Shown here: positions 35,895 to 62,476 of the stretch, piece after piece
How the letters are laid out: every line of letters starts with the position of its first letter
How positions within the stretch are numbered: the first letter of the stretch is position 1
From: Rufibacter roseolus
GTDB taxonomy: Bacteria; Bacteroidota; Bacteroidia; Cytophagales; Hymenobacteraceae
NCBI RefSeq assembly: GCF_017916365.1
Contig: NZ_JAFMSU010000002.1
Coordinates: 434,001-498,000 of the forward strand
DNA: 64,000 nucleotides
Direction of reading: 5' to 3'
Notes under the pieces: model-generated
What the model was told of the DNA's origin: nothing
The model's database searches: none
Seen by the model: the letters and a program-made list of their open reading frames with translations, nothing else
Made by a program: the position numbers and the translations under genes

Positions 35895-35963
35895 GCCTAA
35901 CGGCCTAGTGTAAAAAATGTGCAAAGCCGTCGGCCGTGGTATAGTGTTTACACAATGTTAGGC
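35895..35963 (-). repeat. attC-like site 1 of array 1
   Basis: Ends GCCTAAC (35895-35901) and GTTAGGC (35957-35963) are complementary, and inner arms GTGTAAA/TTTACAC pair too, with an unpaired central segment containing GCCGTCGGCC. This is the R''-L''...L'-R' layout of integron attC sites. It follows the 3' end of the YdeI-like gene. Confidence 0.75.
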
Positions 35964-35974
35964 ATATGTGCCTT

Positions 35975-38761: not shown

Positions 38762-38830
38762 ACATAACGGTCTCGTGCATGAGGCGTGCGAGGCCGTCGG
38801 CCGTAGCATGGCTTATGCACAATGTTGGGC
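38762..38830 (-). repeat. attC-like site 3 of array 1
   Basis: The right end GTTGGGC (38824-38830) is canonical; the left end ACATAAC is imperfect. The inner arms TCGTGCATgag and cTTATGCACAA pair, around GAGGCCGTCGGCCG. It follows the 3' end of the 123-aa gene by 5 bp. Confidence 0.7.
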
Positions 38831-38834
38831 TACG

Positions 38835-39229: not shown

Positions 39230-39296
39230 GCCCAACGGACTCGTATAAAAGACGGCGAGGCCGTCGGCCGAAGCTGACTTTTATACAATGTTGGGC
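39230..39296 (-). repeat. attC-like site 4 of array 1
   Basis: Fully complementary ends GCCCAAC (39230-39236) and GTTGGGC (39290-39296); inner arms CGTATAAAAG/CTTTTATACAA pair; central GAGGCCGTCGGCCG. At 67 bp it is the best-formed site in this array. Confidence 0.8.
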
Positions 39297-39307
39297 AAAG
39301 TAGTTCT

Positions 39308-39763
39308 TTAACCGTCTATTAAAACTGCTTGAGGTTCAACTCCGCTAAATTCTACTGTGAATTGGTGGTTTTCATCATGTTCCGTGTCGAATGATAAATC
39401 CCATTTCAAAGGTTTCTTATCCTGGTTGGGGATTGTTAAGGCGACCAACTGAAATTCGCTGTCGAAGTTTTTTATTGTGAAGTCTTCTTTCCAATTCCTG
39501 AACTCGTCTTCGATTAGTGGCTTGAACTTTATCACCAAGTCGCTGTAGTTTTCCTGAATCCAATTATAAAACTCTTTTTGTTTTTGGTCGGGGCCGTCCT
39601 CGTTAGCGGTGATAAAATACTCAATTTCTTTTCCAGTCGGTTTGAAAATTCCTTTTCCTTCAAAGTAGCTTTTCCCTTCGACCTTCATTTTCCTAAACCT
39701 TAGATTTCCGAAAAAGTCGTCCTGAATTATTACTGGCTTTTTGAAGATGTCGAATAATCCCAT
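39308..39763 (-). CDS. Hypothetical cassette protein (151 aa), first in array 1
   Basis: Not recognised. 151 residues, mixed alpha/beta, opening MGLFDIFKKPVIIQDDFFGNLRF and containing ANEDGPDQKQKEFYNWIQENYSDL. This wording recurs in small Bacteroidota proteins of unknown function found in accessory regions. It begins 20 bp after the attI-like leader, the position of the first cassette, which in integrons is the best expressed one. Confidence 0.6.
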   Translation of the reverse strand: MGLFDIFKKPVIIQDDFFGNLRFRKMKVEGKSYFEGKGIFKPTGKEIEYFITANEDGPDQKQKEFYNWIQENYSDLVIKFKPLIEDEFRNWKEDFTIKNFDSEFQLVALTIPNQDKKPLKWDLSFDTEHDENHQFTVEFSGVEPQAVLIDG

Positions 39764-39782: not shown

Positions 39783-39906
39783 GCCCAACTACTGTATATA
39801 AGGAGCTGTTCCGGTTATTGACACCTTGAACAGAGCCAAACTTCCGTTTATCTGACCAACGGTGGTCAAATAAACGGAACTGCTCCCCCGAATGTAATAT
39901 ATATCC
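39783..39906 (-). other. attI-like array leader A
   Basis: Read on the minus strand it ends GTTGGGC (39789-39783), the core at which a first cassette joins an integron attI. It contains a hairpin TTCCGTTTAT/ATAAACGGAA (39842-39851 with 39870-39879) around a second dyad TGACCA/TGGTCA, and a TACATTCG box near the outer end that could be a promoter. It is collinear with leader B at 59348-59470. Confidence 0.6.
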
Positions 39907-39924
39907 CTCTCATTGTATTTTCTA

Positions 39925-39958
39925 TTTAGCGGCTATTTTCTCAAAAGCAGCCACTAAA
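39925..39958 (-). other. Diverged copy of the oxidase terminator
   Basis: A 10-bp arm pair with one mismatch (39925-39934 with 39949-39958) occupies the position that the oxidase terminator has in the 59.5-kb copy. Confidence 0.5.
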
Positions 39959-39967
39959 CAGACAGCC

Positions 39968-40060
39968 TTACCTTATTGCCTCATACAACACCTCTATTAG
40001 GCGCTTCGCATCTCTGCCGGTGCAGCCGGGGATTTGTTTGCGGTAGCTGGTGTCAAGGCG
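39968..40060 (-). pseudogene. 3'-end remnant of an FAD/Fe-S oxidase gene
   Basis: The minus strand reads ...TSYRKQI-P-GCTGRDAKRLIEVLYEAIR-stop, against the end of the intact oxidase at 59534: TSCRHQIHDGTGRDAKHPIEVLYEALR-stop. 39978-40052 aligns without gaps to 59544-59618, about 62 of 75 bases identical. Nothing upstream (beyond 40060) resembles the rest of the gene, so it is a truncated duplicate, not a gene. Confidence 0.8.
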
Positions 40061-57648: not shown

Positions 57649-57716
57649 TGCCAACGTACTGGGCTAAACGGCGTGCGAAGCTGTCGGCCAAGACTGAAGT
57701 TTAGGTGTTGTTAGCA
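57649..57716 (-). repeat. attC-like site 2 of array 2
   Basis: Ends TGCCAAC (57649-57655) and GTTAGCA (57710-57716); inner arms GGGCTAAAC/GTTTAGGTG pair; 68 bp, between the 3' end of the DUF6615-like gene and the start of the RelA/SpoT gene. Confidence 0.72.
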
Positions 57717-57722
57717 CATGTT

Positions 57723-58545: not shown

Positions 58546-58614
58546 TACTAACGGTCTCGTGTAAACAACGTGCAAGGCCATCGGCCGTGGCATGATGTTT
58601 ACACAATGTTGGCA
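58546..58614 (-). repeat. attC-like site 3 of array 2
   Basis: Ends ACTAAC (58547-58552) and GTTGGCA (58608-58614); inner arms CGTGTAAAC/GTTTACACA pair perfectly; central AAGGCCATCGGCCGTGGC. 69 bp; it follows the 3' end of the metallopeptidase-like gene. Confidence 0.78.
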
Positions 58615-58644
58615 GTAGGCATTTTTATAATTAGCCTAACCAAT

Positions 58645-59347: not shown

Positions 59348-59470
59348 TGCCAACTACTGGATAAAAGGAGTGAATTCCTGTTATTGGTTCTATATGCGGA
59401 GGTAAACTTCCGGTTATCAGACCAACTGTAGGGGATAACCGGAATTACACTGCCGAATATACTATATATA
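59348..59470 (-). other. attI-like array leader B
   Basis: Read on the minus strand it ends in GTTGGCA (59354-59348), then the first cassette gene. A hairpin TTCCGGTTATC/GATAACCGGAA (59408-59418 with 59434-59444) occupies the same place as in leader A, with G-to-T and C-to-A changes that keep pairing, and TATATTCG occurs near the outer end. Leader, terminator and oxidase end together are collinear over ~270 bp with 39783-40052. Confidence 0.6.
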
Positions 59471-59489
59471 GACAATTCAATAAAAAACA

Positions 59490-59526
59490 CTTTTCGGGCT
59501 GTTTTCACCAAAACAGCCCGAAATCA
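59490..59526 (-). terminator. Terminator of the oxidase gene
   Basis: Stem 59492-59505 with 59510-59523, followed on the minus strand by an A/T-rich run with TTTTTTATT. It separates the oxidase from the cassette array. Confidence 0.7.
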
Positions 59527-59533
59527 GTATTAT

Positions 59534-62476
59534 CTATCTCAACGCCTCATACAACACCTCAATTGGGTGTTTCGCGTCTCTGCCGGTGCCGTCGTGGATT
59601 TGGTGACGGCAACTGGTGCCGGGGGCGGCGATGATGACGTCATTTGCCGCAGCCCGCACGGTAGGGAAGAGCACCAGTTCGCCTACTTTCATAGAGACCT
59701 CGTAATGCTCAGCTTCATACCCGAAAGAGCCGGCCATGCCGCAGCAACCCGAGGGAATGACTTCCACCTTGTAGTTGGCTGGTAAACTCAGCATCTGCTG
59801 GGTGTACAGCACGCTGGAAAGCGCCTTCTGGTGGCAGTGGCCGTGCAGTTTAATCAGGCGGGCCTCGGTTTTGAAGAGGTTCCGGTCAATGTTTTTGTTC
59901 AGGATTTCGCGGGCAATGAATTCGTCAAACTGCAGGCAGTGGATGGACATGTGTCTGGCGGCTTCCAGTTGGTCTTCGTCTACCAGGTCCAGGTACTCGT
60001 CGCGGAAGGAGAGGATGCAGCTGGGCTCAATGCCAATGAGTGGGGTATCCGCCGAGACCAGTTGGTGCAGCATGGCCACGTTCTTCTGGGCCAGTTTCTT
60101 GGCCTCGCGCACCAATCCCTTAGACAGGTAGGTGCGGCCGCTTTCCTCATGCTCGGGCAACACTACCTCATAGCCCAGTTTCTCCAGCAGCAGCACCGCT
60201 TTGATACCAATGGGCGTGTCGTTGTAATTTGTGAACTCGTCGCAGAACAGGTACACCTTCTTTTTGGGCGCGGCGCATTCCTTCACTTTCTCGGCCTGAT
60301 GCTTTTTAAACCAGCTGCGCAGCGTGGTTTTGTGCAGGAGCGGGAGGGAGCGTTTGGGCGCGAAGCCCACAGCCTTTTTGAAGGCGTTTGCGGTAAAAGA
60401 ATTCTTAAACAGCAGGTTGTAAGCCCCCGGCAACAGCGAGGCCAGCTTGTTCGCGTTGTTGAAGTTGCTGATCAGGCGCGTGCGGAACGGAATGCCGTTG
60501 GCGTCATAGTAGTGCTGCAGGAACTCGGCCTTGAGCTTGGCCACGTCTACGTTAGACGGGCACTCAGACTTACAGCCTTTGCAGGAGAGGCACAAATCCA
60601 TGGCCTCTTTGATTTCTTCGTGGTCAAAGCGGTTTTCTTTGTTGGAGCGGGTCAGGAACTCGCGCACAGTGTTGGCCCGGCCGCGGGTGGTGTCGCGCTC
60701 GTTTCGGGTCACCATGTAGCTGGGGCACATGGTACCGCCGGTGAGGTGCGTTTTGCGACAGTCGCCGGAGCCGTTGCAAAGCTCGGCCGCCCGCAGCACG
60801 CCGCCCGCGTCTTTGAACTTGAACACGGTGTCAAACTCGGGTGTTTCCTGGCCCGGCTCGTAGCGCAGGAAGGTGTTCATGGAAGGCGTGTTCACAATCT
60901 TGCCCGGGTTGAAGATGTTGCCCGGGTCCCACACGCGTTTCACTTCCTCCAGCAGTTTGTAGTTCTCTTCACCGATCATGAACGGGATGAACTCGCCGCG
61001 CAACCGGCCGTCGCCGTGCTCACCGCTCAGAGAGCCGCGGTACTTCTTCACCAGCGTGGCAATCTCCGTAGCGATGGAGCGGAACAGCTGGTTGCCTTCC
61101 TCGGTCTTCAGGTTGATGATGGGGCGCAGGTGCAGCTCCCCGGTACCGGCGTGGGCATAGTGCACGCAATAAAGGTCATACTGCTCCAGAATGAGGTTGA
61201 ACTCCCGGATGAACTCGGGCAAATCGTTCACATCCACGGCCGTGTCTTCAATCACTGCCACCGGTTTGGCATCGCCGGGAATGTTAGACAGCAGCCCGAG
61301 GCCCGCTTTGCGCAGGTTCCAGACTTTCTTCGTATCGGCGCCGGTTACCAGCGGGTAGTGGTAGCCCAGGTTGTTTTGCTGCAGGTCCTGCACGAGCGCC
61401 TGTGCCCGGGCTTCAATGTTGGCTACAGAATGATCGGTGAGTTCCACCACCAGGATGGCCCCGGGATCGCCCTGCACAAAGAAGCGGTTCTGGCTCTGCT
61501 CAATGTTGGTTTTGGTACACTCCAGCACGTAATGGTCCATCAGCTCGCTGGCGCTGGGGTTGTGCAGCAAGGCCACCAGGTTCGCCCTTAAACACTCATC
61601 CACGCTCTCGCAGTGCACGCACAGCAGGCCAATCTCGTTGGGCGGAAGTTGGTTCACGTGCAGCTTGATCTCCGTGAGGAACGCCAGTGTGCCCTCAGAA
61701 CCGGCAATGAGCTTGCAGAAGTTGAAGCGCTCCTCGGTCTCGGTAAACGGCTCGGTTTCCAGGAGCAGGTCGATGGCGTAGCCGGTATTGCGGCGCTGGA
61801 TGCTGGGTTTGGGAAACTCGGCGCGGATGTTATCCTGCGTCTGCGGATGGCTCAGCATGGCTTTGGTAGCCTGGTAAATGCGCGTCTCCAGATCACCCGA
61901 GGTATTCTCGCCCCGGCATTTCGCCTCAAATTCCTCCCGCGTCAACACCCCGAATTCAGCCTCGGTGCCATCGCTCAGAATGGCTTTCACGCTGATGAGG
62001 TGCTCACGGGCGCTGCCGTACACAATGGAGTTGGAGCCGCAGGAGTTGTTTCCCACCATGCCGCCAATCATGGCGCGGTTGGCCGTTGACGTCTCCGGAC
62101 CGTAGAAAAGGCCGTGCCCCTTCAGGAACATGTTCAGCTCATCCCTAATCACCCCGGGCTGCACGCGCACCCAGTTCTCCTGGGGGTTTACCTCCAGAAT
62201 TTGCGTAAACGTGCGCGAAACATCCACCACAATGCCGCTGCCCACCACCTGACCAGCCAGCGAGGTACCAGCCGTGCGCGGAATCAACGACGTGCCTTCC
62301 AGTTTAGCGAACAAGATGAGGGTTTTGATATCCTGGATGGAGGCCGGGAAAGCTACCGCCAAAGGTTTCTCGCGGTACGCCGAGGCATCGGTGGCGTACA
62401 GCGTCCGGATGGTGTTGTCGTAATGGAGTTCGCCTTCTAATTTATGGGCAAGGTGAAGTAATTTCTCTGGGCTCAT
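59534..62476 (-). CDS. FAD-linked oxidase / Fe-S protein (glycolate or D-lactate dehydrogenase type)
   Basis: 980 residues, YdiJ/Dld-II-like: FAD_binding_4 domain (about 35-235, with IPRTAGTSLAGQVVG), FAD-oxidase C domain (about 250-520, with GTGELHLRPIINLKTEEG and SLSGEHGDGRLRG), two Cys clusters (CNGSGDC...CPSY near 590 and CLSCKGCKSECP near 645) for 4Fe-4S centres, and CCG-type ligand motifs (HGHCHQKA, SGCCGMAGSFGYE, about 890-925). It would oxidise a 2-hydroxyacid and pass electrons to the quinone pool. Its 3' end is duplicated at 40.0 kb. Confidence 0.93.
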   Translation of the reverse strand: MSPEKLLHLAHKLEGELHYDNTIRTLYATDASAYREKPLAVAFPASIQDIKTLILFAKLEGTSLIPRTAGTSLAGQVVGSGIVVDVSRTFTQILEVNPQENWVRVQPGVIRDELNMFLKGHGLFYGPETSTANRAMIGGMVGNNSCGSNSIVYGSAREHLISVKAILSDGTEAEFGVLTREEFEAKCRGENTSGDLETRIYQATKAMLSHPQTQDNIRAEFPKPSIQRRNTGYAIDLLLETEPFTETEERFNFCKLIAGSEGTLAFLTEIKLHVNQLPPNEIGLLCVHCESVDECLRANLVALLHNPSASELMDHYVLECTKTNIEQSQNRFFVQGDPGAILVVELTDHSVANIEARAQALVQDLQQNNLGYHYPLVTGADTKKVWNLRKAGLGLLSNIPGDAKPVAVIEDTAVDVNDLPEFIREFNLILEQYDLYCVHYAHAGTGELHLRPIINLKTEEGNQLFRSIATEIATLVKKYRGSLSGEHGDGRLRGEFIPFMIGEENYKLLEEVKRVWDPGNIFNPGKIVNTPSMNTFLRYEPGQETPEFDTVFKFKDAGGVLRAAELCNGSGDCRKTHLTGGTMCPSYMVTRNERDTTRGRANTVREFLTRSNKENRFDHEEIKEAMDLCLSCKGCKSECPSNVDVAKLKAEFLQHYYDANGIPFRTRLISNFNNANKLASLLPGAYNLLFKNSFTANAFKKAVGFAPKRSLPLLHKTTLRSWFKKHQAEKVKECAAPKKKVYLFCDEFTNYNDTPIGIKAVLLLEKLGYEVVLPEHEESGRTYLSKGLVREAKKLAQKNVAMLHQLVSADTPLIGIEPSCILSFRDEYLDLVDEDQLEAARHMSIHCLQFDEFIAREILNKNIDRNLFKTEARLIKLHGHCHQKALSSVLYTQQMLSLPANYKVEVIPSGCCGMAGSFGYEAEHYEVSMKVGELVLFPTVRAAANDVIIAAPGTSCRHQIHDGTGRDAKHPIEVLYEALR

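Follow-up and report, generated by a model that had tools for sequence, protein, structure and literature searches.

The window analysed here, a stretch of 64,000 nucleotides from Rufibacter roseolus, carries two cassette arrays, each headed by a copy of the same leader element (leaders A and B). The sense strand of both arrays is the minus strand. Read in the sense direction, the leader runs from a promoter-like box, CTATATAGTATATTCG, through a first palindrome, P1 (half-sites S1 and S2 around a loop), and a second palindrome, P2 (S3 and S4), to the core CAGTAG^TTRRRY. The half-site consensus of leaders A and B is TTCCGKTTATC for S1, GATAAMCGGAA for S2, AATAACCGGAA for S3 and CTCCKTTTATC for S4. 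About 20 nt lie between S2 and S3 and usually 3–4 nt between S3 and S4; the core and then the first cassette follow. On the 5' side of both leaders we found the end of a gene or gene fragment, then a terminator-like hairpin, then the promoter-like box. The half-sites, the core of leader B and the hairpin listed below were read from the sequence, and the pairing of S2 and S4 in leader A also comes from the pairing analysis. R1 is a sequence-only model built from seven leader copies of this genome.

39785–39903, minus strand: leader A (promoter box, P1, P2 and putative attI core), head of the cassette array at 31–39.8 kb; R1 match of 107.8 bits, the copy itself being in the R1 model; its ortholog L105, in another genome of the genus, is 97% identical up to G^TT
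39889–39903, minus strand: promoter-like box of leader A, sense TATATATTACATTCG; conserved across leaders, presumed promoter
39869–39879, minus strand: S1 of leader A, sense TTCCGTTTATT
39853–39868, minus strand: P1 loop of leader A with CCGTTGG, a motif found in two orientations across the leader family
39842–39852, minus strand: S2 of leader A, sense GATAAACGGAA, partner of S1 in P1
39809–39819, minus strand: S3 of leader A, sense AATAACCGGAA
39795–39805, minus strand: S4 of leader A, sense CTCCTTATATA, partner of S3 in P2; by eye like the inner right arm of an attC
39783–39794, minus strand: putative attI core of leader A, CAGTAG^TTGGGC, with the probable crossover between 39788 and 39789; identity with ortholog L105 stops here
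39308–39763, minus strand: ORF (151 aa) of the first cassette in array A, without a Pfam match at E ≤ 0.001
39230–39297, minus strand: attC of the first cassette of array A (attC scans and models)
38762–38831, minus strand: attC in array A (attC models)
35895–35964, minus strand: attC in array A (attC scans and models)
59534–62476, minus strand: FAD-linked oxidase/Fe-S protein, 980 aa, upstream neighbour of leader B (Pfam)
59492–59523, minus strand: terminator-like hairpin 3' of the oxidase gene, outside the element
59350–59468, minus strand: leader B (promoter box, P1, P2 and putative attI core), head of the cassette array at 54–59.4 kb; R1 match of 93.7 bits, the copy itself being in the R1 model; the upstream oxidase gene end is common to leaders of three other genomes (L124, L140, L142)
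59434–59444, minus strand: S1 of leader B, sense TTCCGGTTATC
59408–59418, minus strand: S2 of leader B, sense GATAACCGGAA
59375–59385, minus strand: S3 of leader B, sense AATAACAGGAA
59360–59370, minus strand: S4 of leader B, sense CTCCTTTTATC
59350–59359, minus strand: putative attI core of leader B, CAGTAG^TTGG, with the probable crossover between 59353 and 59354
58546–58615, minus strand: attC of the first cassette of array B (attC scans and models)
57649–57717, minus strand: attC in array B (attC models)

The original prediction described two collinear stretches, and a blastn search of the genome aligned 39785–40052 with 59348–59618 at 69% identity over query positions 3–271 (E 5.9e-22). 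Also present as described are the stems, the GACCAAC of both loops, a terminator-like hairpin and the 3' end of the oxidase gene. The oxidase end does not belong to the element, because other leaders stand behind other sequences. A fragment resembling the oxidase 3' end also lies behind leader A (39980–40055) and behind its ortholog L105, which suggests for platforms A and B a common duplicated origin that includes the flank. Known Rfam RNAs were not found in the window (Rfam 15 at gathering thresholds, 0 matches). Pfam matches of ORFs in the array regions (31.2–39.8 kb and 54–59.4 kb) include glyoxalase, AHSA1, OmdA, a WYL regulator, RelA/SpoT and DUF families, and several ORFs had no match.

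The duplication turned out to be part of something larger than the pair that had been noticed, since the leader forms a multi-copy family. Besides A and B, blastn returned five more copies and one weak one from the same genome. R1 gave seven strong copies in the 5.5 Mb genome (E < 1e-25, by construction, since these are the members of the model) and weak copies at C2:127892 (6e-6), C1:784267 (6e-5) and C1:1238558 (9e-4). A half copy at C2:1476218–1476285 (E 1.8e-9) matches only positions 62–122 of the model, which comprise P2 and the core, and lies directly 3' of a gene for a 489-aa tyrosine recombinase. The remaining weak matches are mostly palindromes read on the opposite strand.

A search for copies in relatives, which had been suggested as a check, yielded R1 matches in 29 of 59 genomes: all 16 genomes of Rufibacter, 12 of 21 others of the family, and one of 22 from other families, where the match was marginal (G055). 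R1 found no leader in nine genomes of the family genera labelled g5 and g6. We took 80 regions from among the R1 matches listed, and 90 leaders entered the downstream analysis. Leaders at different loci of one genome can share 51–63 bp upstream of the promoter box at 88–95% identity (L128, L134 and L140 in G001; L141, L161 and L175 in G005). This common stretch suggests that platforms may multiply as a unit of ~180 bp.

A strict attC search (free-energy filter, then a 7-bp core) returned one site and was replaced by a looser scan, with a background of 0.8 hits per shuffled 64 kb, and by model-based searches. We searched the leader loci with an attC profile that had been built by iteration from 11 seed sites. 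Same-strand attC lay within 6 kb downstream of 64 of the 90 leaders. The original prediction had looked to further covarying copies, none of them away from cassettes. This was largely borne out: many further copies covary, and where 3 kb or more of downstream sequence was available (75 leaders), 56 leaders have same-strand attC and 19 do not. All 175 attC found downstream of the 90 leaders (within 6 kb, best of overlapping hits) had the orientation of the leader and none the opposite one, and none was found upstream in the up to 2.5 kb looked at.

A covariance model built from 27 attC describes the sites as RYYYAAC...GTTRRRY with foldable arms, with double changes in five of ten predicted pairs. 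It located at least 46 attC in the genome of the window, and weak sites may be missing from this number because 150 of 1819 candidates were scored in the first look. Nearly all (43 of 46) lie no more than 12 kb downstream of, and on the same strand as, the nearest leader or integrase-linked attI. There are 11 same-strand arrays of 1 to 15 attC each, and every head is a leader or an integrase-linked attI; three of these heads are weak leader copies. Three singletons lie outside the arrays (C1:964478, C1:1013966 and C3:104430). In 34 other genomes, attC were found in 15 of 15 of the genus, five of seven of the family and three of 12 of other families (1–3 weak matches each); the two family genomes in which none was found belong to g5 and g6.

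Many leaders in different species stand behind the same upstream sequence, that is, at orthologous loci, yet their first cassettes differ. Between leader A and its ortholog L105, identity is 98% in the 300 nt upstream, 97% in the leader and 58% in the 300 nt after it; for L130 and L132 the corresponding values are 92, 97 and 54%. Across 41 leader pairs, most of which have more diverged leaders (44–78%), the 300 nt past the junction scored 49–60, with 32 for one pair with short sequence. As a control, 200 random pairs scored 54.9 ± 1.9 (range 49–59.7) and shuffled sequence 54.4. Identity past the junction is thus at the level of random pairs, which indicates that the cassettes are unrelated. 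The alignments of the two best pairs (A–L105 and L130–L132) break at CAGTAG^TT. The integrase-linked pair L160–L177 (93, 91 and 53%) breaks at about the same place, but through an insertion sequence in the core of L177.

That element carries an IS110-family transposase (Pfam, in L177 only) and starts right after CAGTAGT of the attI core (L177:4395–5741, minus strand). The same end lies 3' of the core in L145 and L154, which belong to another genome and are soon cut off by the contig end; L180 has a related end there. The attI core seems to be an insertion target for an IS110-family element. The IS1111-attC elements of other integrons may be a comparable case.

Some cassettes are common to different platforms. 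L010 and L135, non-orthologous leaders of two genomes, begin their arrays with one and the same cassette (96% over 477 nt). The cassette in second place at L010 comes first at L133 (91% over 720 nt), with the boundary ...CCG^TTGGTGGTAATAAATAACATG in the former and ...TAG^TTGGTGGTAATAAATAACATG in the latter, and the second cassette of L135 matches the first of L160, an integrase-linked attI, at 86%. Two more matches, L120/L144 and L148/L173, have less clear boundaries. We take the boundaries of the shared cassettes to be junctions produced in nature by recombination between G and TT. As a separate observation, L128 and L140 (both in G001) are identical in the first 94 nt past the core, each up to a contig end, which may be one cassette or an insertion element at two platforms.

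The array heads, the G^TT breakpoints, the cassettes common to several platforms and the recombinase gene adjoining the same site all strongly support the attI-type reading that the original prediction had offered. Our main reading, to which we give a probability of roughly 0.8, is that the leader is a promoter joined to an attI-type cassette-insertion platform, present about ten times per genome, and that a single integrase most likely serves all copies in trans. The leader promoter would read into the array. A new cassette, which ends in an attC hairpin site, would enter between G and TT of AGTAG^TTRRRY and would be expressed from that promoter. About ten platforms stand with no adjoining integrase gene and one attI stands beside the single integrase gene, and the integrase would most likely act on all of them in trans. 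P2 would most likely be bound by the integrase, and P1 would most likely fold into a hairpin at the start of the cassette mRNA, or alternatively serve as a second, accessory integrase-binding dyad. The reading is based on comparisons of copy number, array-head position, breakpoints, shared cassettes and covariation, from which we infer catalysis by the integrase, its action in trans, promoter activity and the role of P1.

The promoter-like box is strongly conserved (CTATATAGTATATTCG), and its pattern matches 60 of 69 leaders. No TTG element at a fixed distance from the box, and no classical TTG −33 element, was found in these 69. Such conservation would also be expected if the leader were merely a conserved promoter or a REP-like repeat that precedes arrays by chance. 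We regard this as very improbable, since the homology of orthologous loci stops at the CAGTAG^TT core, and the core with S3–S4 also occurs between the integrase gene and cassettes, where the promoter box and P1 are absent.

The sole candidate integrase is the 489-aa protein, a Xer-like tyrosine recombinase. Its gene is followed by S3-S4-CAGTAG^TT and then by attC arrays, and is co-directional with the cassettes. Same-strand attC lay downstream in 19 of 30 integrase loci (at most 1.5 kb per locus covered). In an alignment of 17 sequences, R347, K373, H436, R439, H462 and Y471 are invariant; we take these to be the catalytic residues. The N-terminal extension of ~210 aa has no Pfam match. The enzyme scores 206 bits with the integron-integrase profile, below the cut-off of 265. 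The IntI-specific insertion (I2) is absent: IntI4 aligns to the enzyme as 9–179 and 254–319, with 74 residues between facing 31, and the spacing from GKGxKxR to HxLRHS is 58 residues in close relatives of the enzyme compared with 100 in IntI1. Since this insertion is held to be essential, another enzyme could be the actor; against this, no IntI above the cut-off was found in the genome, which is 99.98% complete.

In a tree of 29 rows, the three insertion-bearing IntI formed a clade of their own (100/100) with the 489-aa integrase outside it. These rows represent 29 of 34 named sequences (two Xer rows are identical and one Pontibacter row is short); L187, L188, L233, L237 and L241 had no motif match. 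The tree leaves the deeper order unresolved, and a common origin of the array-bearing I2-less integrases across phyla is not settled by it. A wider scan of named genomes with the integrase alignment kept 80 of 585 confirmed loci. The nearest relatives among the matches listed are from Adhaeribacter terrigena and an uncultured Pontibacter. By eye, attC-like repeats also lie 3' of less related recombinases in Flavobacterium sp. BFFFF1, F. enshiense, a Prolixibacteraceae MAG, Arundinibacter roseus and Saccharibacillus kuerlensis; the attC profile found none of these. Four such stretches are the following.

L221:4970–6738, L237:5540–7435, L210:5181–7655 and L188:6380–7547: attC-like repeats, identified by eye, 3' of Xer-like tyrosine recombinases of other Bacteroidota

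The enzymes of L210, L221 and L224 have 58–59 residues where IntI1 has 100. Classical integron membership fails on one defining feature, the integrase insertion, and an integron-like way of working appears well supported by the natural junctions. We lean, by a small degree, towards a wider interpretation as a distributed integron, in which one Xer-like, I2-less integrase, encoded once, would feed about ten scattered attI-promoter platforms. With related I2-less recombinases heading attC-like arrays in other Bacteroidota (Flavobacterium), a whole integron branch may work without I2.

The location of the integrase gene bears on the trans arrangement. In R. tibetensis (G009), the only integrase match at E ≤ 1e-40 is on plasmid NZ_CP012644.1 (235 kb) and the full leaders L114, L125, L132 and L142 are on a 5.17 Mb chromosome-sized contig (among the matches listed), so that the integrase would act in trans. 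Perfect co-occurrence of integrase and leader was considered and dropped, because the distributions are similar and not identical. G023 has leader matches and no integrase at E ≤ 1e-40, and a relative of the recombinase (36–50% identity) occurs in eight of 22 genomes of other families, only one of which (G055) has a leader match, a marginal one.

Dispersed leaders might instead be relics of full integrons, or have been copied together with an array, their integrase having been lost or never present, and might no longer recombine. Leaders do stand at fixed orthologous loci in several species, some have no attC, and weak, degenerate copies exist. Integrase fragments, some with stops, adjoin two promoter-less attI halves (G004:C2:238146 and G012:C111:60919), which suggests decay at some of the integrase-linked sites. 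In Xanthomonas, arrays that lack an integrase and stand at fixed loci have been read as traces of past activity (available text of PMC12444791). We nevertheless think a relic state unlikely. Orthologous leaders with 97% identity have different first cassettes, so turnover continued after their separation; dispersed and integrase-linked sites have cassettes in common; and no integrase remnant was found next to a full leader among the matches listed.

The roles of P1 and P2 within an active platform were approached through covariation, using the 69 of 90 leaders that have all four half-sites (21 were left out for a missing part). Positions 1–8 of P1 form 458 Watson–Crick pairs out of 552, compared with 407.6 ± 5.6 in shuffles (z 9.0) and 421.2 ± 6.1 in shuffles within genomes (z 6.0); the shuffles ignore kinship, so all z values given here are too high to be read as probabilities. 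Position 2 (TTCCG/TTACG) pairs in 67 of 69 leaders (C-G in 48, A-T in 18, G-C in one; expected 40.0). The matched T-A/G-C exchange that the original prediction read as covariation pairs in 45 of 69 (expected 29.7), but it is broken in three of the seven copies in the genome of the window (G-A twice, A-A once). Other positions are at or little over expectation. P2 pairing gave z 4.2 overall and 2.5 within genomes, and non-partner pairs covary too (S1–S3 z 5.7 and 2.7, S4–S2 z 5.1 and 4.0, overall and within genomes). Position 2 has changed on both sides with the pair kept in eight of 13 orthologous leader groups listed. Several arm variants can occur within one genome (G007 has C-G, A-T and G-C), which suggests that the arms are matched to each other and not to one fixed recognition sequence.

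The claim that covariation means a selected structure therefore stands in part. P1 pairing is above the shuffles, but 45 of 69 leaders keep the cited pair, changes tend to affect all four half-sites at once, and correction of one arm by the other would give the same pattern. The covariation supports a maintained palindrome and fits either base pairing or mutational correction between arms; by itself it does not make the element an RNA. We dropped strict RNA covariation as the sole explanation because three of seven copies break the cited pair, and integrase-specific recognition of the outer arm bases because of the several arm variants in one genome.

In L173 (L173:2001–2118), all four half-sites read TGGCG where orthologous leaders have TTCCG, a concerted change over ~110 bp. 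The P1 loop occurs as CTACCGTTGG in the forward orientation in 14 leaders, inverted in 12 and like neither in 57. Its orientation seems to differ between the orthologs L012 and L113. A clear loop inversion between orthologs was weakened as a candidate, since the loop is half palindromic and two of three pairwise comparisons give close scores; the two orientations in the family stand.

These patterns would also arise if P1 and P2 were purely double-stranded dyads for an integrase or a repressor, with the covariation coming from arm-to-arm correction (template switching) and not from RNA. This concerns the role of P1 only and is compatible with the attI reading. It would fit one motif in all four half-sites that changes together in some leaders, as in L173, the covariation of non-partner pairs, and a loop motif in both orientations, as flipping palindromes would give. 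It fits less well with P1 partners covarying most (within genomes, z 6.0 versus 2.5–4.0 for other pairings) and with arms that differ within one genome, whose outer bases are not explained by sequence-specific binding of one protein. P1 also accompanies the promoter box, and none was seen at the integrase-linked attI examined (L023, L160, L177 and L181), where R1 matches the P2-core half only. We hold the dyad explanation tentatively, at somewhat less than an even chance.

Within the platform reading, P2 is common to leaders and integrase-linked attI, so it is most likely the integrase-binding part, and we think that P2 and the core carry out recombination. At two loci of genus g3 (L158 and L172), S2 or its remnant lies shortly before S4. 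The likeliest place for P1 is the 5' end of the mRNA of the cassettes; a binding dyad is about equally probable.

The sequence evidence departs from three descriptions: that an integron has one integrase and one adjoining attI, that I2 is needed, and that complete integrons are rare in Bacteroidetes. Should our reading be confirmed, such systems would escape integron finders that demand the insertion, a naturally occurring enzyme would allow a test of whether cassette recombination needs I2, and the first cassettes of a cell could be expressed in parallel from many promoters and not from one. If the distributed integron is real, the I2-less branch may show cassette recombination before or without the I2 innovation.

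In the literature covered (titles and starts of abstracts, with most subscription journals and all bioRxiv preprints outside it), no paper on such a multi-platform system and none joining Rufibacter with integrons was found. In the available text of the sources, IntI is set apart by an extra domain; attI adjoins intI and the IntI-specific domain serves as a criterion (PMC9668308); and the insertion is called essential for integron function, but not fully conserved in an integron-like subgroup (PMC8138268). I2 is tied there to single-strand recombination of folded attC (PMC7790495). Complete integrons are described as rarely found in Bacteroidetes (PMC9024848), integrons have been detected in Bacteroidota among other phyla (PMC8618304), and the attC models of PMC8352920, as described in its available text, cover eleven taxa and no Bacteroidetes.

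The complete integron reported by IntegronFinder 2.0 for Bacteroidetes proper, that of Salinibacter ruber M1 (PMC9024848), is from the same phylum and is set apart here by its description only: according to the available text of PMC9668308, IntegronFinder requires the IntI-specific profile, whereas the Rufibacter integrase does not have that region. CALIN, the clusters of attC with no integrase, resemble the dispersed arrays in standing at fixed loci in Xanthomonas and in being held mobilisable in trans (PMC12444791). In contrast, all 11 Rufibacter arrays are headed by a leader or attI homologous to the integrase-side attI, and the available text of PMC12444791 mentions no such heads. Treponema integrons share an integrase gene in the same direction as the cassettes, but the available text of PMC3607928 states one attI per integron and treats the integrase as IntI. 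IntI1 of the class 1 integron shares 33.5% identity over 97% of the 279-aa catalytic part and a C-terminal SPLD tail, and differs in the longer spacing given above. With sedentary chromosomal integrons (intI, attI, Pc and attC array), the Rufibacter system shares the G^TTRRRY attI junction, a promoter-like box before the array and co-oriented cassettes ending in palindromic attC. It differs in having about ten attI platforms per genome and not one beside the integrase, an integrase with no IntI-specific insertion whose gene is co-directional with the cassettes, and an attI of four half-sites in two palindromes.
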